This document shows, one piece after another, positions 10,155-58,807 of a stretch of DNA of 64,000 nucleotides. The position numbers were made by a program, and so were the translations under genes. This DNA comes from Sorex araneus. Taxonomy: Eukaryota > Chordata > Mammalia > Eulipotyphla > Soricidae. Within the stretch, counting starts at the first letter, position 1. The number at the start of each line of letters is the position of its first letter. Where the stretch lies: NCBI RefSeq assembly GCF_027595985.1, contig NC_073306.1, forward strand, positions 98,897,426 through 98,961,425. The letters are read 5' to 3'. The notes below the pieces were generated by a model, which worked only from the letters and a program-made list of their open reading frames with translations, had not been told where the DNA came from and searched no databases.

Positions 10155-11867
10155 ATACTATATCTAGAGAAGCCTAAAACCTCTACTAAGAAACTCTTAG
10201 AAACAATAGACTTATACAGTAAAGTTGCAGGCTACAAAATCAATACCCAAAAATCCATGGCCTTCATATATGCAAACAATGAGGCAGAGGAAAGGGACAT
10301 GAAAAGAGCAATCCCATTCACAATCGTGCCCCAGAAAATCAAGTACCTCGGAATCAGCTTAACCAAGGAAGTAAAAGACCTTTACAAAGAAAACTACAAA
10401 ACGCTACTCCATGAAATCAAAGAGGACATGAGGAAATGGAAACATATACCCTGCTCGTGGATAGGGAGAATCAATGTTGTCAAAATGGCAATACTCCCTA
10501 AAGCATTATACAGATTCAATGCGATCCCTATAAGTATACCCATGACATTCTTCAAAGAAATGGATCAAGCAATCCTAAAATTCATATGGAATAACAAACG
10601 TCCAAGGATAGCTAAAACAATTCTTGGGAAAAAGATGATGGGAGGCATCACCCTCCCCAACCTCAAACTTTACTACAAAGCAGTAACAATTAAAACAGCA
10701 TGGTACTGGAACAAAGGCAGAGCCGTAGACCAATGGAACAGGGTGGAATATCCCTACACACAACCCCAAATGTATGATCATCTAATCTTTGATAAGGGAG
10801 CAAGAGATGTGAAGTGGAGCAAGGAAAGCCTCTTTAACAAATGCTGCTGGCACAACTGGACAACCACATGCAAAAAAATGGGTTTAGACCTTGACCTGAC
10901 ACCATGCACAAAAGTCAGATCAAAATGGATTAAAGACCTCAACATTAGACCACAAACCATAAGGTACATTGAAGACAAGGTCGGCAAAACCCTCCACGAT
11001 ATTGAAGATAAAGGTATCTTCAAAGGTGACACGGAACTAAGCAATCTAGTAAAAACAGAGATCAACAAATGGGACTACATTAAACTAAAAAGCTTCTGCA
11101 CCGCAAAAGATACAGTGACCAGAATACAAAGACTATCCACAGAATGGGAAAGGATATTTACACAATACCCATCAGATTAGGGGTTGATATCAATGGTATA
11201 TAAAGCACTGGTTGAACTCTACAAGAAGAAAACATCCAACCCCATCAAAAAATGGGGCGAAGAAATGAACAGAAACTTTACCAAGGAAGAAATACGAATG
11301 GCCAAAAGGCACATGAAAAAGTGCTCTACATCACTAATCATCAGAGAGATGCAGATCAAAACAACCACAAGATACCACCTCACACCACAGAGACTAGTAC
11401 ACATCCAAAAGAACAAAAGCAACCGCTGTTGGAGAGGATGTGGGGAGAAAGGGACCCTTCTTCACTGCTGGTGGGAATGCTGACTGGTTCAGCCCTTCTG
11501 GAAAACAATTTGGACGATTCTCAAAAAATTAGATATTGAATTCCCATTTGACCCAGCAATACCACTGCTGGGAATATATCCCAGAGAGGCAAAAAAGTAC
11601 AATCGAAACAACATCTGCACATGTATGTTCATCGCAGCACTGTTTACAATAGCCAGAATCTGGGAAAAACCCGAATGCCCCAGAACGGATGACTGGTTGA
11701 GGAAACTTTGGTACATCTATACAATGGAATACTATGCAGCTGTTAGAAAAAAGGAGGTCAAGAATTTTGTAGTTAAGTGGATGGGCATGAAAAGTTTCAT
11801 GCTGAGTGAAATGAGTCAGAAAGAGAGAGACAGACATAGAAAGATTGCACTCATCTATGGTATATAG
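10155..11867 (+). pseudogene. L1 ORF2, 5'-truncated (RT thumb to C-terminus), two in-frame stops
   Basis: Encodes the C-terminal 570 or so residues of L1 ORF2p, the LINE-1 endonuclease/reverse-transcriptase protein. The endonuclease and the RT catalytic motifs are missing because of 5' truncation. The frame holds hallmarks in the right order: [108 protein letters not shown], the cysteine/histidine cluster [18 protein letters not shown], and IYTMEYYAAVRKKE near the end. A single frame runs the whole length with only two stops (TAG at 11178 and TGA at about 11481), so the copy is fairly young. The terminal TAG is at 11865-11867. It is not a host gene. Confidence 0.95.
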
Positions 11868-12345
11868 AATAACAGAGTGGGAGACTAACACCCAAGAACT
11901 GTAGAAATAAGTACCAGGAGGTTGACTCCATGGCTTCGAGGCTGGCCTCACGTTCCGGGGAAAGGGCAACTCAGAGAAGCGATCACCAACTACATTGTAG
12001 TCGAAGGCCATGTGGGGGAAGGGAGTTGCGGGCTGAATGAGGGCTAGAGACTGAGCACAGCGGCCACTCAACACCTTTATTGCAAACCACAACAGCTAAT
12101 TAGAGAGAGAGAACAGAAGGGAATGCCCTGCCACAGTGGCAGGGTGGGGTGGGGGGAGATGGGATTGGGGAGGATGGGAGGGAGGCTGGGTTTACTGGTG
12201 GTGGAGAATGGGCACTGGTGAAGGGATGGGTTCCCGAACTTTGTATGAGGGAAGTATAAGCACAAAAGTGTATAAATCTGTAACTGTACCCTCACGGTGA
12301 TTCTCTAATTAAATATAAATAAATGAAAAAAATGAAAAAAAAAGA
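11868..12345 (+). mobile_element. L1 3' UTR with G-rich tract
   Basis: Follows the ORF2 stop: GTACCAGGAGGTTGACTCCA, a polypurine GC-rich tract (GGCAGGGTGGGGTGGGGGGA and following G-runs, about 12140-12190), GGTGGTGGAGAATGGGCACT, CACGGTGATTCTCTAATTAA and an A-rich end. The same 3' UTR recurs at 40510-40925, 52646-53105 and 54325-54785. Confidence 0.92.
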
Positions 12346-14221: not shown

Positions 14222-16085
14222 AAGATGATTGTCTGTACTTTCAATGCATGGTCACTGGCATCAGAAGCATCCATCAAGGACCTGATGGTGCAAGAGCAGA
14301 AGATCAAGTACGACATCTTTGGTCTGACCGAAACGAGGAGACATCAATCACATCACACCATTTTCGACACTGGAGAAGAATTTTTCCTCGGAACATGTGA
14401 CAACAGAGATGTTGGTGGCCTTGGTGTCCTTGTCAACACAAACTTGGCCATGAGCATCAATTCATTTGAAGGCCTAACAATCCGAATTGGACGATTACGC
14501 TTGAATAGATGTGGCTCACTGCCTGCAGTTTCTATCTTCATCGTCTACGCACCAACTTCCAACTACGACGAAGAAGAAATTGAAAGGTTCTACATGGAAC
14601 TGGAGAAGTTCTATGAAGAAGACCACACCTTCTACAAGATTATTGTTGGTGATTTTAATGTCAAGATAGGTCCGAGAAGGTCGCCTGAAGACCACATTGG
14701 GACACATGGCCTAGAATGGAATGATCAGGGTGAGAGACTATCTAAATTCATCATGTCAACCAAGACCATCCATGGTAATTCACAGTTCCAGAAGGCAGAA
14801 TCTAAACGCTGGACATGGGAGTCTCCCGGTGGACAGTTCCACAATGAAATTGACCACATCATATTCAATCGAAGGTTTTGCCTGACCGATGTCGCTGTTG
14901 TCCCAAAATTCCAAACAGGATTGGACCACCGTCTCCTTCGTGCGAAATTCTACTTCACAGACCGGGGAGAAAAGTCTGCAAAATTTAAGTCTAAGAAGAC
15001 AACTCCCAGAGGGGCTGGAGCGATAGCACAGCGGGTAGGGCATTTGCCTTGCACGCGGCCGACCCGGGTTTGAATCCCAGCATCCCATATGGTCCCCTGA
15101 ACACCGCCAGAAGTAATTCCTGAGTGTAGAACCAGGAGTAACCCCTGTGCATCGCCGGGTGTGGCCCAAAAAGAAAAAAAAAAAGAAGAAGACAACTCCC
15201 AGAATGACCACCAACTGGGAGCTCTTTGGCACTATTGCAGCAACGTGGGAAGATGCTGTCCTTGACAACATCGACGAGGAATACGATCGACTGGTTCAGC
15301 ACCTCCATGTCTGTGAGAAGAATGCCAAGAGTGAGAAAGACACAAACAGACGTCTGTCTTCGGAAACTCTCAAGCTCATTCGTCAACGTGGTTTGGTGCG
15401 AGCCTCAGGCAACCACAAGCTAACGTCTGAGCTCACAAAGCTGTGCAGAGATGCGATAAAGGAAGACCTTAAAGAGAGAAGAGCAGCAGTGTTGGCCAGT
15501 GCAGCAGAAGCCGGGAAAAGTATTCGCAATGCTCGCCTGTCCTTCGCCAACTACAAGACCAAGATGACTGCCCTCCGACATTCCGATGGATCTATCACAT
15601 CCTCGAGAAAGGCAATGGAGAAAATTATTCACGACTTCTACTCGAATCTCTTTGACAGCCATGTCCACCTGCCCACATACCAAATTCCGCAGCATGGATA
15701 TGTCGTTCCCACCATTCTGCCTTCTGAAATCCGACACGCCATTTCGCTGGTAAAGACACAAACAGCACCTGGTCCGGACAAGGTCAGACCCCAACACCTG
15801 AAGAATCTACCACCAGTACTCATCAATACACTGGCCCGACTCTTCACACGCTACTTGTCTGAATGCAAGGTTCCGTCCCAGTGGAAAACCAGTAGGACCG
15901 TTCTGTTGAACAAGAAGGGAGACATCCACAACATCAGCAACTATGGCCTAATCTGTCTGTTGTCTGTCGTCTACAAGCTGTTCACTCGTGTCATCCTGAA
16001 TAGAATAGGCAGAACACTAGACGAAGGACAACCATGCGAGCAAGCCGCGTTCCGAAGAGGATTCAGCATGATAGACCATATCCAC
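14222..16085 (+). pseudogene. RTE ORF, 5' half: AP-type endonuclease and RT N-terminal part
   Basis: Encodes the endonuclease domain and the start of the reverse transcriptase. Endonuclease motifs in order: VCTFNAWSL (Asn), FGLTETRRHQ (catalytic Glu), FIVYAPTSNYDEEE (Tyr), IVGDFNVKIG (Asp, Asn), THGLEWNDQGERL, TIHGNSQF, EIDHIIFN and GLDHRLLRAKF (Asp-His). After 15203 the frame resumes with TNWELFGTIAATWEDAV, then RT N-terminal motifs TAPGPDKVRPQHLKNL, SQWKTSRTVLLNKKGD and QAAFRRGFSMIDHIH. The frame is open on both sides of the SINE at 15011-15185 and rejoins in frame if the SINE and one duplication are ignored. The first few codons of the ORF seem to be missing at the inner junction. Confidence 0.9.
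15011..15185 (+). mobile_element. Shrew SINE nested inside the RTE
   Basis: Near-consensus copy (GGGGCTGGAGCGATAGCACA to GTGGCCCAAAAAG). An 18-bp target-site duplication AAGAAGACAACTCCCAGA lies at 14993-15010 and 15186-15203. The insertion is younger than the RTE and shows that the RTE is resident in the shrew genome. Confidence 0.97.
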
Positions 16086-22929: not shown

Positions 22930-23621
22930 AACGCGGCGTGGCGTTAACCATAGTATGATGTCCATTAAGCTGACACAGACCTGGTGGCGTGGGAATGGGA
23001 TACAAGGGAATAAATTATTATGTACTTGGAACAGTGGGACGCTGGTGGAATCTCGAGCCGGGGCCGATACCAGCGTATTACTTTTGGTTCCAGAAACTGC
23101 TTGCAGACATTCTACCAGACTATCAACTAAGCCAGAGCCCCACGCCGGCTGATGACGAGAAATAACCATCTTTTTTGGTTTGTTTTCCCTTTGTCAGGCA
23201 GCGTGGTGATTACTAAACAGGCGTGATCTTGGTGGCGCGGGACGAGGGGGGAAAAAATAGAAAAGTTATGTAACAAACAGTGGGACTTAATATCTCTACA
23301 TTCTCAGCAATGGAGAGCCATCAAATGCTTCCTTGACAGTGGGACTGTCTTTTCTTTTTTGGGGGGAAACCCTAGCAACAATAGTGAGTTATGTGTTGAA
23401 ACATGGACTATAACCAAGATAAAGCGTAAACGAAGTGAAACTTATCACTTACAAGGGCGGGGACTGGGGGGGCGGGAGGGGGCGGGAGGTATAATGGGGT
23501 GGTTGGTGATGGAATATGGGCATGGGTGAAGGGAAGGGTGTTTGAGTATTGTATAACTGACATAATCCTGAGAACTATGTAACCCTCCACATGGTGATTC
23601 AATAAAATTTAAATTTAAAAA
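22930..23621 (+). mobile_element. ORF-less composite (monomer/L1-tail) element, 5'-truncated
   Basis: Flanked by AAAAATTTCTTCTTATT at 22913-22929 and 23622-23638. It contains two diverged internal modules, each with a GGCGTGG...ACCATA/ATTACT piece, CTGGTGGCGTGGGA or TTGGTGGCGCGGGA, and a TTATGTA...AACAGTGGGAC block. It ends in an L1-type 3' end (ATGGTGATTCAATAAAATTT). The same order is found in the nested copy at 36442-37781, so both belong to one subfamily. No coding capacity. Confidence 0.85.
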
Positions 23622-23638
23622 AAAAATTTCTTCTTATT

Positions 23639-25974: not shown

Positions 25975-26508
25975 CTGCGCCAAGTTGTCTCATACAGGGC
26001 AGCCCAGAGGGGTGCGGGTGAGTTCCCCTCCCCGCCCCAGCAGAGCCCCAGCAGCCAAAAACGTCCTGAACTTAATCGCCACCATGCTCACGGCCACTCT
26101 TCACAGACTTGGACAAGCCTCACCCATGAGTGATTCTGCTATGTAATCATATTTAAAATGTTAGAATTCCTGGAGTGACACCTTATACTCTACACCACTG
26201 ATGTACCAAGAGTAGCACACCGCATTTGATGGGCTTTAAAGTAGAAGGCAACCAATCTCGGGTGGCTCCAGGGTGAAATACAACAATCTTCACACACTTT
26301 CCTCTAAGGAAACTTTTTGGGATCATTTTTGCAGATGATTCATAACAAGAAATACAAAATTAATTATTTCAGTTCTGCTTCAGGGGCAGGATTTGGGTTT
26401 CAGGGTAGAAACATTTGAAATATGGTGGTGGGGAAGTGTAATGGTGGTAGGATTGGTGTTCAAATATTAAACTATTGTGAACAACTTTATAAAAATAAAA
26501 TTAAATTC
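25975..26508 (+). mobile_element. Old ORF-less L1-tailed repeat, second family
   Basis: Left part is moderately GC-rich (AGTTCCCCTCCCCGCCCCAG). Then GAAATACAACAATCTTCACA, CTTTCCTCTAAGGAAACTTT and GATCATTTTTGCAGATGATT, with a G-rich L1-like 3' end (AATATGGTGGTGGGGAAGTG ... GAACAACTTTATAAAAATAA). The middle to right part matches 45160-45465 (GATACAACAATCTTCACTAA, TTCTTCTAAGAGAACATTTT), so this is a repeat family. No frame. Confidence 0.6.
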
Positions 26509-26511
26509 CCC

Positions 26512-27089
26512 GGGGGCTGTACGTGTGCGGCCTCACTGTGTTGCATGAGCATGATTCCAGAGGGCAGCTAAACTACTTTTGATACTGGCAGCTCCTTGCA
26601 AAATGTCTCCAGACTGAGAACTAAGCCGTGGCCCCATGCCTGCCCAGGAGGGGAAAGGTTTTTCTCTCGCACCTTTTCCTTGCTGGGGCGTGGCAACCGC
26701 CATATTATGAGGACCACAATTGAGAGTTACAAGTTTGCAATGATCCAATTTCTGGAAGAAATTTCCCTGGACTTAGTTGCTAAAATACAGAAATCCAAAA
26801 CTTTCATTTCTCTTCACAGCAGGTCTGACTCTAGTGGGGAACTCCTAACAATAATAGTGAGTTTTTTGTTGAAATATTGAATGTAACCAAAGTAAAGAGA
26901 AAGTAAAGTGAAATTTATCAGTTACACAGGTGGGGGGCGGGGGGCGGTGAGGAGGGATGGGAGGTATACTGGGTTTGTTTTTGGTGGTGGAATATGTGCA
27001 CTGGTGAAGGGATGGTTGTTTCAGCATTGTATAACTGAGACTTAAGCCTGAAAGCATTGTTATTTTCCACATGGTGATTCAATAAAAAA

Positions 27090-27120
<31 letters not shown>

Positions 27121-27130
27121 AAAGAAAAAA
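26512..27130 (+). mobile_element. ORF-less composite element, short copy
   Basis: Starts like the copy at 57570 (TTGCATGAGCATGATTCCAG, TCTCCAGACTGAGAACTAAG), has the ATCCAATTTCTGGAAGAAATTTCCCTGG module, one AACAATAATAGTGAGTTTTT module, a G-rich tract and an L1 3' end (CACATGGTGATTCAATAAAA). The tail is expanded into (AAAT)n at about 27085-27124. It has a single monomer only. Confidence 0.8.
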
Positions 27131-32554: not shown

Positions 32555-33020
32555 GTTGTTGAATCACCATGAGAACAGTTACAAAGCTTTCCAGTTTAAG
32601 TTTCGGTCATACAATGATCAAACACCATCCCTTCACCAGTGCACATTTTCCACCACCAAGAACCCCAGTATACACCCCTCCCACCCCTCCCCCTGTCTAT
32701 CTGTCAGATGGTTTCCACTGTATTCTCTCTCCACTTTGATCACATTCAGTATTTTAACAAAAGAATCACCATTATTATTTGGAATTTTCCCCAATAATCA
32801 GAGCTGCCAAAAAGGCATCATTAGATAATTTTTTTCTATTGCTGATTAGGAAGAGCATATGATGATTTTGGCTTTCTGATATTTTAGTAATAAGTCTGGA
32901 GGGATTTCTGCCAAAAGCCGCAGGGTTCCGAGATTGGTTTGTGTGCCTCTGGGATCATGGCCATTCAGGAGCCAGAGGAGCAGTTCGTGGGTGGCTACTT
33001 GGGGCCTTATCAGGGTGGGG
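32555..33020 (-). mobile_element. Older ORF-less composite element copy
   Basis: Left end is the reversed L1-type 3' end (GAATCACCATGAGAACAGTT, CACCATCCCTTCACCAGTGC), then the reversed GGTTTCCACTGTATTCTCTC area. At 32890-32910 GTCTGGAGGGATTTCTGCCA matches the reversed module seen at 26745 and 57765 (CTGGCAGAATTTTCCCTGG). Right end uncertain. Confidence 0.6.
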
Positions 33021-35400: not shown

Positions 35401-36359
35401 TCCAGCAAGGTGATCAGACTGTAGGGAAGGTGGGAACCTGACTGCTGGTCCTCCTGCCCACTAAAGGCTGACCAGCAGCTTCCTGGCGGGCCCTGAACCT
35501 GGCATATCTCCGCAAGAGCTCTTTGAGATAGGGAGACAAGTGCTGTCAGGGTTTTAAGCCTTTTCCCGCCCTCACTGTATCCAAGGCATTGGGATAGAAA
35601 AGCAGCCCAGGGTTCTCTGGGGCATCCACATGCACCCCTCCAACTTCTTGCGCCCGAGTTTCACTCTCCCGGAGGCTGGCACACTGGACTGTTCTCTCCT
35701 TCCTTCTCCCAGGGCTGCGGGCTAACACCAAGCCTCCAGCTCCACAACAAGAACATATCACAAGTGGTTGGAAGCAGCAGGGGACCTAAGCATCGTCACC
35801 CTGGCCCCAGGGGTCCAGGCACCCTGAGGGGGCTGTGTGGTGGGGAATGGGCCAGAGGAAACATGGTTCTGAGAGATGTGGGTGGCCTGAAAAGACAGAG
35901 CCCTGTTCCAGTGCCATAGGCTGCAAGAGCTGGGGGCCGGGAGGGAACAAACATGGGTGCAGGGAGGAAAGGAGGCATGAGCAATGGAGCCAGCCACCTG
36001 GGCCCCATCTCTGCTCCTCAGGAAGAGGTCTTTGAGAACACTTGCCCTGGCCATGGGCCAAGCCTGCCTGGGGAGGGCAGTGGGATGGGAGCCAGTCCAA
36101 ATTTGGGTTTTCAGGTAGAGGCCATTTAGGGCCTTCTTCTAAGCCAGTAAATGCCTAATTCTCTTATTTATTATGGCCATCCACTAGCTCATCAGCTCCG
36201 GTAACTGAAAATACAAACATGTTAAAGATATTAGTAAACTTCTTTTTCAGTTGGGGAAAACCTGCATTATATGTGCCTTTACTAAAGTCAACCCAGCGGT
36301 CAAAATACAGAGCCACTAAGCACTAATTGTGCTTAGCTTATGCTGAGTTGAACCTTTTT
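35401..36359. other. Unique region, no gene recognised
   Basis: GC-moderate. Several overlapping open frames near 35758-36100 on both strands lack domains or splice support. Confidence 0.4.
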
Positions 36360-37325
36360 AAAAGGGACTGGTGGGCACCCTCTGTGCCTAAAGACTTTGA
36401 TTCCAGAGACCTAACACTTTCGGGCATCCAGCACAGCTTTTTTTTTTTTTTTTTTTTTTTTTTATTGAATCACCATGTGGAGGGTTACATAGTTCTCAGG
36501 ATTATGTCGGTTATACAATTCTCAAACACCCTTCCCTTCACCAGTGCCCATCCTCCATCACCAACCCCCCCAGTATACCTGCCGCCCCCTCCCACCTCCC
36601 CAGTCCCCACCCTTGTACTTGATAAGTTTCACTTCGTTTATGCCTTATCTCGATTACATTCCATGTTTCAACACACAACTCACTACCGTTGTTGGGGTTT
36701 CCCCCAAAAAAGAAAAGCAGTCCTATTGCCAAGGAGGCATTTGATAGTTCTCCACTGCTAAGAATATAGAGATATTAAGTCCCGCTGTTTGTTACATAAC
36801 TTTTCTTTTTCCCCCTTGCCCCGCGCCACCGAGTTCACGCCTGTTTAGTAATCGCCACGCTGCCTGACAAGGGAAAAAAAAAAAAAAACGAAAAGGATGG
36901 TTATTTCCCGTCATCAGCAGACGTGGGGCTCTGGCTTAGTTGATAGACTAGTAGAGTGTCTGGAAGCAGTTTCTGGAACCGAAGGTCTTGCGCTGGTATC
37001 GGCTCCGGCTCGAGATTCCACCAGCGTCCCACTGTTCCATGTACATAATTTTTCCCCTTATATCCCATTCCCACGCCACCAGGTCTGTTTGCTTAATGGA
37101 CATCACACTGTAGTTGACGATACGTCGCGTTTCTTCCCGAGAAAGAAGAAAATTTCTTCTCAGCTGGCGTGGGGATATAGCCTAGTTTAGTCTAGAGAGA
37201 TGGCTACCGTTTTGATTGCCTTCAATATTTCAGCAACAGACTTACTATTCTTGTTAGGATCTCCCACAAAAGTCCGACCCATTAAAAGCGAACCATTACA
37301 TATTGCTGATGCTAAGATGACATTA

Positions 37326-37434
37326 GGTCGCCGCCCCCGCCCCCTGGGGTCTCCCGCAAGCGCGCGAAAGCGTCCTGTTTCAGCTGGATCGCCGGCTCCA
37401 TTTTGCGCTCAGGAAAACCGCGGATCCTGCGCTG
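37326..37434. repeat. 109-bp CpG-rich direct repeat, copy 1
   Basis: Identical by eye to 37672-37780. Starts GGTCGCCGCCCCCGCCCC and ends GCGGATCCTGCGCTG. CpG density is far above the surroundings. Confidence 0.95.
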
Positions 37435-37671
37435 TGCTCAGGAGGGAGGAGTTGAGAGAGAGAGACAGGTTAAAAGAATTGGGGGATGCCCGGGTCCCAC
37501 TGTTTCAGCGCACCGCGGGGTCTCTGGTCCCATGCCGGAATTAGTTCAGTGGGCTGCCTGGAGTCCAAGGGCGCTCCCTTGGGCTCTTCCATCATGCTCG
37601 CTCCGCAGCCGGATCCAAAGGGAAGCACACGTGGGGGAGGTGGGTTTAAATATCTATCTGCTGTGGGCGGG

Positions 37672-37780
37672 GGTCGCCGCCCCCGCCCCCTGGGGTCTCC
37701 CGCAAGCGCGCGAAAGCGTCCTGTTTCAGCTGGATCGCCGGCTCCATTTTGCGCTCAGGAAAACCGCGGATCCTGCGCTG
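37672..37780. repeat. 109-bp CpG-rich direct repeat, copy 2
   Basis: Exact repeat of 37326-37434. It ends one base before the nested element's 5' boundary (37781), so it is a truncated outer monomer. Confidence 0.95.
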
Positions 37781-38869
37781 ACAGCACAGCTTTTAATAAC
37801 AATGCACTGGGACTGCGAACTGGGCTTCAACTCTGTGCTGCCGGGGGAGGATTTTTTCCTCCCCACCCTGTCTTCCTGCACGGAAAACAGCGGCAGCGGC
37901 AACCGCATGGCAGGTGCCATCTTTAAGAATCCTAACCCAGAGGTACTCGATTTTTACACTTGGAGCTCCCAGGGACTCATGGGAAGGGGGTGTAACCGGC
38001 ACACCCTGGCCCAGATAAATTCGGAGCTGCTGGCATGAAGCGGACCCTCTGCGCCTAAAGACTTTGATTCCAGAGACCTAACACTTTCAGGCATCCAGCA
38101 CAGCTTCTAATAACAATGCACTGGGACTGCGAACTGGGCTATGCAATTTCTGGTAGAATTTTCCCTGGACTTTATACAGAAATCCAAAACCGCGCGGACG
38201 CTACCGCGTCTGCGCGACTTAACATCTATAATTGTCAGCTATGTGAAACGGTTCCTTTTGAACAGGTCTGACTTGGGGGGGGGAACTCCAAATAATAACA
38301 GTAAGTTTTTGTTGAAATATTGAAGGTTATTAATGTAGCAGCCACCTCTCTGGACTGTGAACTAAGCAACAGCCCCACGCCGGCCGATGTGGCGTGGTGT
38401 ACACCATACTATGAGGCGTGGGAAGGGGGATGAGGGGAAAAAAAAAAGGGAAAAGGAAAAAAAAAGAAGAGTTATGTACTTGTAGCAGTGGGGCTACATA
38501 TCTCTTCATTCTCAGCAATGGAAAACTAATTATCAAATGCTTCCTTGGTAGTAGGTCTGTCTCTCTTGGGTGGAAACTCCAACAACTATAGTGAGTTGTG
38601 TGTTGAAATATGGAACGTAATCAAGGTAAAGAGAAAATGAAGTGAAATTCATTCGTTATACAGTAGGGGGTAGGGGGTGGGGACGGGGGTATATTGGGGT
38701 TTTTGGTGGTGGAATATGGGCACTGGTGAAGGGATGGGTGTTTGAATATTGTATAACTGAGACATAAACCTGAGAACTTTGTAACTTTCCACATGGTGAT
38801 TTAATTAAAAGTTTAAAAAAATAAAAATAAATAAATAAAATAAAATGAAAAAAAAAAGGGACTGGTGGG

Positions 38870-39289
38870 GGGACAGTGCAGCCAGCAGGTCAACCTGTAC
38901 CTGCAGGGCAAGTGTATCAGCAGCCTGATACTGCCTTCAGGCTTCCTATACCCCCAAATTGCCATTGTGCCTCTGGCTGGACCCCAACAATTAGGGACCA
39001 AGTTTCCTGAGAAATTAAACAGCCATAAGTCAGGTATGTGGGAGCCAGACCCACAGACCACCTCCAGCTCAGCTATATGAGCTCATTTATCAGCACCATA
39101 AATAAATCTCGAAAGAGATCAAAAGCCACAGTTAATCTTGTACCTGCTCATGGCTGAACAGACCGTAAATCAGAGGGGGGTGGGTCAGCCTGGCGCCCAT
39201 GCAAAGCAGAGCCCCCAGAAGCTGCTTGCTCCCACAATCCAAAATCACCACCATACCCCTGACCAGACTCCACCATCTCAGGATGGACC
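38870..39289. other. Unique DNA, no gene recognised
   Basis: No repeat or exon identified. Confidence 0.4.
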
Positions 39290-40400: not shown

Positions 40401-41487
40401 TTTGTTAAAGAGGCTTTCCTTGCTCCACTTCACATCTCTTGCTCCCTTATCAAAGATTAGATGGTCATACATTTGGGGTTGTGTGTAGGGGTATTCCACC
40501 CTGTTCCATTGGTTGACTCCATGGCTTCGAGGCTGGCCTCACGTTCCGGGGAAAGGTCAACTCAGAGAAGCGATCACCAACTACATTGTAGTCGAAGGCC
40601 ATGTGGGGGAAGGGAGTTGCGGGCTGAATGAGGGCTAGAGACTGAGCACAGCGGCCACTCAACACCTTTATTGCAAACCACAACAGCTAATTAGAGAGAG
40701 AGAACAGAAGGGAATGCCTTGCCACAGTGGCAGGGTGGGGTGGGGGGGAGATGGGATTGGGGAGGGTGGGAGGGACGCTGGGTTTACGGGTGGTGGAGAA
40801 TGGGCACTGGTGAAGGGATGGGTTCCCGAACTTTGTATGAGGGAAGTATAAACACAAAAGTGTATAAATCTGTAACTGTACCCTCACGGTGATTCTCTAA
40901 TTAAAAATAAATAAAATTAAAAAAAAATGCCAGTGCCAAAATTTAGTATACTCTCATAAATAAAATTCTAGTAACTGAGACCTCAAAGCACACTTTAACA
41001 TTTGTAGCAAATGATAAAGGCAATTATTTGTAAGTTAACAACAGGGCAAGTATTCCAAACAAGGACCTATGTGCTTGAAAGTGTTCTGCCACAGTGTGCC
41101 AATGCATTTTTTAAAAGAAAAAAAAAGAATATGTAGATATTGGTAGAATGAGGCAAATTTTTATTATTTATAGATACCTTATGTGCCTGGAAGCTGAAGA
41201 AAATAATAAAAAATAATAAGACAACCAATAGTCAGTTAAACCATTAATCTTTAAAAATTGATAGTTGTTATCAGTTATCCAGGTTCCATGCAGGGTGGAG
41301 GGCTGGGAAGGCGGGGTGGGGGGGTGGGGAGGTTGGGGGGTGGGAGGGAGGTATACTGTGATTCCTGGTGGTGGAATATGTGCACGGTGAAGGGATGGGT
41401 GTTTGAGCATTGTATAACTGGGACTTAAACCTGAAAGCTTTGTAACTTTCCACATGGTGATTCAATAAAAGAATAAACTAAAAAAAA
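40401..41487 (+). mobile_element. L1 insertion with 5' inversion and apparent 3' transduction
   Basis: One target-site duplication, AACAGATTGCAGCA, at 40387-40400 and 41488-41501, encloses four parts. 40401-40509 is L1 ORF2 sequence inverted relative to the rest; its reverse complement matches 10731-10850. 40510-40925 is the L1 3' UTR on the plus strand, almost the same as 11920-12340. 40926-41285 is non-L1 DNA. 41286-41487 is another L1-type 3' end with GGTGATTCAATAAAAG and a final A run. The inversion junction shows TGCTGC microhomology between L1 and the target. The simplest reading is one twin-primed L1 whose transcript read through its own poly(A) signal into source-locus flank. Confidence 0.82.
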
Positions 41488-41595
41488 AACAGATTGCAGC
41501 AGAATTATTCAGCGTTCTAAAAAAGAATTTCTAATTGTTTTAGACAGACATTAATAATATTTGTGTCATGAACCTATTTTAACAATCAATTAAAC

Positions 41596-57569: not shown

Positions 57570-58807
57570 GCTCTCCGCTGCTGCATGAGCACGACCCCGG
57601 AGGCCAACTGAACTACTTTAGACATGAGCAGCTCGCAAAAATGCCTCCAGACTGTGAACTGAGTCACTGCCTCATGCAGCGCCAGTGGGCAATGGTTTCT
57701 CTCTCCAGGCTTTTCCATCTTATGAGCACCACAAAAGGGAAGTAAAAGCTTGCAGTGATGCAATTTCTGGCAGAATTTTCCCTGGACTTTTTACTGAAAT
57801 CCAAAATCCAAAAGAGCTAATATATCTTAAATGTCAGCAACGTGCAACGGTTCCTTTTTAGCAGGTCTGACTTTGGGGGGAAACTCCAAACAATAATAGT
57901 GAGTTTTTTGTTGAAATATTGAAGGTAATCAAAGTAGCAGCCATTTCTCTAGAATGTGAACTAAGCTATAGCCCCATGCCAGCTGAGCAGAGGAAATATC
58001 CTTCTTTCTCGGTTCTTCTCCCTTTTCAGGGAGAAACGCGGTGTGGCATCCACCATACTATGAGGTCTATTAAACAGGAACAAACTTGGTGGCGCGGGAA
58101 AGGGAAAAAAAAGTATGTACTTGGAACAGCGGGACGCTTGGGCAGTCTCGGGCCGAAGCTGATACCAGCACATGCTCCGCCAAGATTCGACCCGGGTGGC
58201 CACACTTTTGTGCGGCCACTTTGCTGCTGATCAACTAGAATCCAGAGGCCAACTAGACTACTTTTGGTTCCAGAAACTGCTTGCAGCCATGTCTCTAGAC
58301 TGTGAACTAAGCCAAAGCCCCACGCCAGCCTTGGATGAGAAATATTGTTCTTTCTCGATTTTTTTCCCCCCTTGTCGGGCGGCGTGGTGTCAGCCATATT
58401 ATGAGGACTATTAAGCAGGCACGAACTTGGTGGCGCAGGAAGGAGGAAAAAAAAAGAGTTATGTTCTTGGAACAGCGGGGCTTCATATCTCTTCATTCTC
58501 AGCAATGGAAAACTAATTATCAAATGCTTCCTTGGCAGTAGGGCTGTTTTTTTTGGGGGGAAACTCCAACAGCAATAGTGAGTTTTGTGTTGAAATATGG
58601 AATGCAATCAAGGTAAAGAGAAAATGAAGTGAAATTTATCAGTTACGCAGGCGGGGTGGGGGGCGGGGGGTGGGAGGTATACTGGGGTTTTTGGTGGTGG
58701 AATATGGGCACTGGAGAAGGGATGGGTGTTTGAGTATTGTATAACTGAGACATAAGCCTGAGAATTTTGTAACTTTCCACATGGTGATTCAATAAAAAAA
58801 AAAAAAA
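57570..58807 (+). mobile_element. ORF-less composite element with three diverged monomers
   Basis: Flanked by AGGAGCAATCACTTTAG at 57553-57569 and 58808-58824; 1,238 bp. Three related units begin near 57640 (TGCCTCCAGACTGTGAACTG), 57945 (TTTCTCTAGAATGTGAACTA) and 58290 (TGTCTCTAGACTGTGAACTA), each followed by a CCATGCCAGC/CACGCCAGCC piece. The second and third have GGCGTGGTGT/CGGTGTGGCA...CCATA.TATGAGG and ACTTGGTGGCGC. It ends in a G-rich tract and an L1-type 3' end with AATAAA and a 15-A tail. No reading frame spans the units. Confidence 0.88.

Follow-up and report, generated by a model that had tools for sequence, protein, structure and literature searches.

An ORF-less, LINE-1-type retroposon family with tandem 5′ units in the shrew Sorex araneus

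Judged from their sequence, related copies in a 64,000-nucleotide stretch of Sorex araneus DNA (NC_073306.1, positions 98,897,426 to 98,961,425; hereafter the window) form a single LINE-1-type retroposon family that lacks ORFs and carries tandem 5′ units. The copies carry target-site duplications (TSDs), A-rich tails and clustered 5′ ends; their 3′ parts are related to an L1 lineage, L1-II, their long forms have a doubled layout, and the two halves of their units have diverged unequally. We propose, with a probability of roughly 0.8 for the model as a whole, a single non-autonomous family that would have arisen as a fusion in a short form (type D), was then doubled, carries units acting as polymerase II promoters, and is copied in trans by L1.

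Copies in the window and across the genome

Two full copies are nested at 36360–38869, and further copies, parts and relatives lie elsewhere in the window:

22930..23624, + strand: 5′-truncated relative of type A, 86.6% to the inner element, TSD AATTTCTTCTTATT; groups with type A in the tree
26506..27126, + strand: type D short form (the 26512 copy), a promoter-like unit as leader joined to a single L1-II-type 3′ UTR
32555..32862, − strand: fragment of an L1-II-type 3′ end, by sequence match a candidate family member
36360..36375, + strand: left TSD of the outer element, AAAAGGGACTGGTGGG, read directly
36376..38853, + strand: outer element, type C, split by the inner element and bounded by its TSDs
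36429..36441, + strand: left copy of the inner element's 13-bp TSD
36442..37781, − strand: inner element, type A, poly(A) at the low end; TSD in 8/8 fetched type A loci
37326..37781, − strand: type A tandem units, about 1.3 × 346 bp (37326–37671 and a partial unit, 37672–37780)
37611..37622, − strand: type A start register CCCTTTGGATCC, where, or one unit upstream, 6/8 type A insertions start
37645..37650, − strand: TATA-like TTTAAA, some 28 bp before the register of type A; the offset was measured in L002
37782..37794, + strand: right copy of the inner element's 13-bp TSD
38015..38020, + strand: TATA-like ATAAAT preceding the register of type C (in L062, at offset −28)
38042..38055, + strand: type C start register GGACCCTCTGCGCC, the outer element's second, from the start clustering of type C rows
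38173..38337, + strand: first L1-II 3′ UTR copy of the outer element, 66.8% to the L076 3′ UTR
38497..38853, + strand: second L1-II 3′ UTR copy (38497–38647), terminal part and poly(A) of the outer element, 76–77% to the L076 3′ UTR
38854..38869, + strand: right TSD of the outer element, AAAAGGGACTGGTGGG
41315..41489, + strand: 5′-truncated 3′ end of the L1-II/element clade
57570..58807, + strand: type B element, TSD AGGAGCAATCACTTTAG
57739..57936, + strand: first L1-II 3′ UTR copy of the type B element, 64% over 253 columns to L076
57937..58482, + strand: putative fossil promoter units, flanked by the two 3′ UTR copies and seen as an internal repeat in the 57570 copy
58483..58807, + strand: second L1-II 3′ UTR copy and tail of the type B element, 77.7% to L076 and 79% to L088

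The outer element is flanked by perfect 16-bp TSDs, and the inner element entered it 66 bases from its start; this nesting of type A inside type C agrees with A being the younger. In the inner element's units, a 109-bp repeat recurs 346 bp apart at 100% identity. The TSDs of the 22930 and 57570 copies are likewise perfect, with lengths of at least 14 bp and of 17 bp. The perfect TSDs that the first-pass annotation had reported at 22930, 36376, 36442 and 57570 were thus read at all four. It had also listed the copies at 26512 and 32555 as matching without clear duplications. At 26512 the sole candidate is 9 bp long and A-rich (AAAATTAAA, at 26497 and 27127). No TSD of at least 8 bp was found at 32555; the match there is an L1-II-type 3′ fragment, and the comparisons made showed no promoter unit in it. 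The repeated 5′ units of about 300–350 bp that it described correspond to units of 344–346 bp (inner type), 297–303 bp (57570 type) and 314–335 bp (outer type); the copies differ, however, in their 5′ part, several unit types being carried on related bodies.

The 2.4 Gb genome was searched with DNA queries taken from parts of the window copies, and 40 candidates were scored per search, the first-look candidates numbering 2242 (A), 3679 (B), 4183 (C) and 4366 (D). All 40 scored places for the outer-element piece 37800–38250 were 89–100% identical to it. Allowing up to 2 mismatches, the start-register patterns described below match 866 (A), 816 (B) and 5071 (C) times, numbers that count registers and not copies; reversed-pattern controls returned 0 each time for A, B and C. 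The description of a successful family, given earlier from six copies, agrees with register counts in the hundreds to thousands. Pairwise identity averages 0.972 for A (n = 8), 0.934 for C (n = 14, excluding the interrupted window copy), 0.920 for D (n = 9) and 0.909 for B (n = 15). Since the sampled loci are the best matches to one copy, and hence a non-random set, these identities do not firmly date the types; D is no more diverged than B, so that placing D before B rests on layout.

The copies are non-coding, as the first-pass annotation had stated. We searched five of them (the outer copy in two pieces, the inner copy, 22930, 57570 and 26512, with 32555 set aside) by tblastn with the open ORF1 and ORF2 of L040, in which Pfam RVT_1, endonuclease and Transposase_22 were found, and obtained no match below E 0.31. 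L1 ORF remnants in the middle of the element, which that annotation had named as evidence against its reading, are thereby ruled out for these five copies, as is the ORF1 and ORF2 homology that marks an autonomous L1. The longest ATG-initiated ORF per copy, on either strand, spans 61–221 aa in 38 copies. Ordinary L1 copies, 5′-truncated or rearranged and similar to one another by chance, would also share L1-type 3′ ends, in a window that is rich in them. Such copies would hardly have the defined 5′ ends and uniform lengths seen here, nor lack an ORF match in all five cases, and chance similarity is ruled out by the register counts (866, 816 and 5071, against 0 in the reversed control); we give this explanation practically no weight.

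Automatic detection found exact TSDs of at least 10 bp in 35 of 46 loci (A 8/8, B 10/15, C 11/15, D 6/8). The 11 loci in which none of that length was detected automatically include L057, the window's outer copy, whose TSD was seen directly, and several of the TSDs are A-rich and weak (L055, L060, L071, L080). Among 28 insertion sites, a pyrimidine precedes the TSD in 23, and the TSD begins with AA in 18 and with TA in 6. Such site preferences are expected of the L1 endonuclease. The features of an L1-dependent retroposon, namely TSDs, an A-rich tail and an L1-type target site, are thus present, and from them we infer that the element RNAs are copied in trans by proteins of an L1 partner.

Other repeats were seen in or beside these loci. 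L040:3536–8359 is an L1-I copy with a long open ORF1 (320 aa) and ORF2 (1284 aa), and an L1-I 3′ half at window 10155–12332 is 97% identical to the last 570 aa of its ORF2 and 97% to its 3′ UTR. Window 15555–16085 is reverse-transcriptase-like and distant from L1 (21% to L1 ORF2). The host DNA of the L074 element (after 1700) reads like an RTE-type LINE; horizontal transfer of an RTE retrotransposon between nematodes and the common shrew is the subject of PMC6542046. A SINE-like short repeat with an A-rich tail recurs in the loci (L080, about 400–570; L076:7532–7700), and in L080 a type D element is inserted directly behind its tail.

Start registers and change of the tandem units

Each type has one register at which the 5′ ends of its insertions cluster. 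In type A, 6/8 insertions start at (G)CCCTTTGGATCC: two use the last register and four the one a unit further upstream. The other two, including the window's inner copy, start at or near GCGCAGGATCC. Fifteen type B insertions start within about 15 bases of the register CTCTCCRCTGCTGC, eight at the last register and seven one unit up; the type B query had the register as its first position, so that copies reaching it were favoured, and in L045, L050, L052 and L054, which have no TSD, the start is merely the alignment edge. In type C, 27 of 38 extra (partial-unit) rows start at query positions 240–245. Type D starts, which lie about 30 bp upstream of the type B register, cluster less tightly: among six copies with a TSD, three start at GCTCTC just before the core, two within about 10 bases and one further on.

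A TATA-like hexamer, as a motif match in one unit per type, precedes the next register by 28 (A), 30/29 (B/B′) or 28 (C) bases. Likewise in one unit each, CACGTG stands at −11/−13 in A and B, and AAAATGG occurs further up in A, B, B′ and C. Three of the six type A copies that start at the register carry an extra 5′ G (L005 and L008, where the unit has T, and L002, where it has C), which fits a cap-derived base. Taken together, the clustered starts, the TATA-like boxes and the extra G suggest that each unit directs polymerase II starts, and the tandem 5′ units would accordingly be polymerase II promoters, possibly transcribed today. An element that is non-coding, ends in an A-rich tail and has a short form of about 600 bp might instead be a SINE, that is, a polymerase III transcript with an L1-derived tail. 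The region 36300–38900 has no Rfam match up to E 1, however, TATA-like boxes lie upstream of the starts, and the long forms reach 1.1–1.6 kb; we rate a SINE as very improbable.

If the start lies one unit downstream of the box, each jump would shed one unit, and a copy beginning at the last register would be left without its promoter. The first 100 exact type A register places (exact matches on contig C1 and part of C2) comprise 52 single registers, 24 pairs and no triples. Upkeep of the family must, on this arrangement, depend on rare long arrays, on insertions that begin within a unit, as the inner copy does, or on unit amplification.

The core sequences, taken from one unit each, are GAGATGTGATCC (D), GAGATTCAACCC (U), GAGATTTAAGTGC (B′), CAATATTTAAGCAC (B) and AGATATTTAAACCC (A), a series that can be read as a stepwise gain of the TATA box with a downstream shift of the start. 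In a tree of the bodies (40 rows, midpoint root), A and C each form one clade (100/99), and the B rows surround them in no resolved order.

The units were also compared half by half. L1 control pairs reach z 3.1, so values under about 4 were not read as homology. The C leader half matches that of D (z 9.3; 0/200 shuffles as high), whereas the C promoter half gives z −0.4 against D and 3.3–3.8 against A, B and B′. Conversely, the A promoter half matches that of B (z 17.6), and the A leader reaches z 1.3 against C, 2.7 against B, 3.3 against D (a T/C-rich run) and 7.7 against B′. The C–D leader match and the A–B promoter-half match rule out A and C as unrelated promoters or fully replaced 5′ units. 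Type C thus appears to keep the old leader with a different promoter half, and type A the old promoter half with a mostly different leader; units seem to change by halves and not wholesale.

Origin of the 3′ part and of the units

A further young L1 lineage beside L1-I, termed L1-II (members L033, L076–L079 and L088), was found via the divergent ORF1 of L033, which is 77% identical to that of L1-I. All 39 other scored places are 97–98% identical to L033, and two distinct L1 lineages therefore look recently active side by side. Young L1-I also carries tandem 5′ units, GC-rich and 143 bp long (L039:3022–3242, L041:3011–3227), and these are unlike those of the element.

Similarity of the element body to L1-II begins about 10 bases behind the L1-II ORF2 stop, and the L1-II 3′ UTR is matched at two places in each of types B, C and A. 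The complete 3′ end of L088, the one such L1-II copy sampled, is 81% identical to the 26512 copy over 297 columns, 77% to another D copy over 295 and 79% to B over 342. L1-I, the other of the two lineages sampled, was rejected as the source: its longest matches are 68–73% over 139–197 columns, against 77–81% over 295–342 for L1-II, percentages that come from different scoring, and the tree of 3′ ends agrees with L1-II. In that tree of 32 ends, the elements, L1-II and two window fragments stand apart from 16 other L1 ends (97/95), and the grouping of the elements by themselves, next to L1-II, is weak (84/71). By these comparisons, the 3′ part descends from the L1-II 3′ UTR and not from that of L1-I, which gives the L1-type 3′ end recognised earlier a specific lineage.

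Type D, the type of the 26512 copy, combines one leader with one 3′ UTR; 7/8 fetched copies measure 564–616 bp, and the eighth, with two units, 897 bp. The long forms carry further units between their two 3′ UTR copies. In L074, a relative of the 57570 copy on which this alignment was made, two such units (U1 and U2) align to B units (69–85% over 39–100 columns) and also to the leader of the 26512 copy (68–71%). The long form consequently reads units, 3′ UTR, units, 3′ UTR, and looks like a head-to-tail doubling of the type D short form, with old units fossilised in the middle. What lies in the middle is no leftover L1 sequence: unit and 3′ UTR recur there. At the D junction, 9 bases (TGAGAGGTA) are common to the unit (L083) and the L1-II 3′ UTR, which would fit a template switch.

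We suggest the following order of events, with the short form preceding the doubling and the later types: (I) a short form (type D, about 600 bp) would have joined a tandem promoter unit to the L1-II 3′ UTR about 10 bp behind the ORF2 stop; (II) head-to-tail doubling would have given unit(s), 3′ UTR copy 1, fossil U1 and U2, 3′ UTR copy 2 and poly(A); (III) in A, B and C, the start would be set at the beginning of a unit by a TATA-like box near the end of the preceding one; and (IV) the poly(A) RNA with its L1 3′ UTR would be copied in trans by L1 ORF2p, probably that of L1-II, through target-primed reverse transcription.

Where the units came from bears on the earlier proposal of an internally deleted L1. 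In the form considered here, an old L1-II whose own 5′ UTR consisted of these units would have lost its two ORFs, ORF1 and ORF2, with promoter and 3′ UTR retained. The L1-type insertion, the missing ORFs, the L1-II 3′ UTR and the promoter-like 5′ units all agree with that proposal; L1-I (143 bp) and L1-II (about 146 bp, L078) have tandem 5′ units too, and replacement of L1 5′ UTRs is known (PMC9022269). The units themselves, however, have no clear match to L1 5′ UTRs. Nothing rises above shuffles in 33 L1 upstream regions, four of which match body pieces, as 3′-end fragments, and direct comparison with the 5′ UTRs of L1-I and L1-II gave no clear match either, a faint type B signal excepted. 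The type B unit is colinear with L1-II 5′ UTRs along a partly T/C-rich stretch (z 2.6–4.0 in 4/4, with at most 4/200 shuffles as high), and scores below 0 against L1-I 5′ UTRs in 2/2. Against the L1-II 5′ UTRs, B′ reaches z 2.7, and one B′ unit has a 25-base match (24.0 bits, against 21.1 for the best of 20 shuffles); z does not exceed 2.0 for A, C, D or the fossil units. The shared 9 bases at the D junction suit template switching as well as deletion. In view of the faint type B signal, the units may derive from an old L1-II 5′ UTR, and we rate an internal deletion, a variant of the model that differs in where the promoter came from, at somewhat below even odds.

Under the model of fusion and doubling, a broader reading can be put forward tentatively, and we would not quite bet on it: a protein-less mammalian retroposon may have run its own promoter turnover, starting from a unit (perhaps an old L1-II 5′ UTR) joined to the L1-II 3′ UTR, followed by doubling, stepwise gain of a TATA box, and then, in separate lineages, a change of the promoter half (C) or of most of the leader half (A).

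Comparison with known systems

HAL1 (half-L1) is a non-autonomous L1 relative that keeps ORF1, in contrast to the shrew family, whose five tested copies have no ORF1 match. RIME/SIDER of trypanosomatids is an ORF-less LINE derivative that keeps promoter and 3′ end; it resembles the shrew family in this respect and differs in its LINE clade and its host, and it is not known to have tandem promoter units. SVA and LAVA are marked by Alu-like and VNTR modules, and Alu is known from primates only.

L1-II itself shares a 3′ UTR homologous at 77–81%, and its 5′ UTR is faintly resembled by B units, but it has ORF1 and ORF2 and a GC-rich 5′ UTR without a clear match to the units. Mouse L1 monomers are similar in their tandem 5′ units, clustered 5′ termini and 5′ UTR replacement (PMC9022269), whereas the shrew family has no ORFs, units of 297–346 bp and a TATA-like box before the start; for the mouse monomers a YY1 motif is named, and the word TATA is absent from the main text of that paper.

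The repeated replacement of mammalian L1 promoters has been ascribed to avoiding competition for host factors and to escaping repression (PMC9022269). An ORF-less element with the same promoter turnover would separate promoter evolution from protein evolution. Its many copies with mapped starts would permit a direct test against the history of host repressors (KRAB zinc fingers), and the exactness of the fusion just after the ORF2 stop is relevant to the question of which RNA features L1 proteins require.

Among the titles listed in a literature search, none names a shrew family of this kind; the main text of PMC13174262 contains neither "shrew" nor "Sorex", and PMC11544316 gives repeat totals. 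Close counterparts are non-coding composites with tandem repeats, SVA, LAVA, PVA and FVA, of which SVA and LAVA are described as hominoid-specific and mobilised by L1 in trans (PMC4432496, PMC7353768), a route that would apply to the shrew family as well. Judged against these published descriptions, the shrew family appears to follow an SVA/LAVA-like logic, and is set apart from SVA and LAVA by tandem units at the 5′ end where insertions begin, an L1 3′ UTR as its tail, and a host outside the hominoids.
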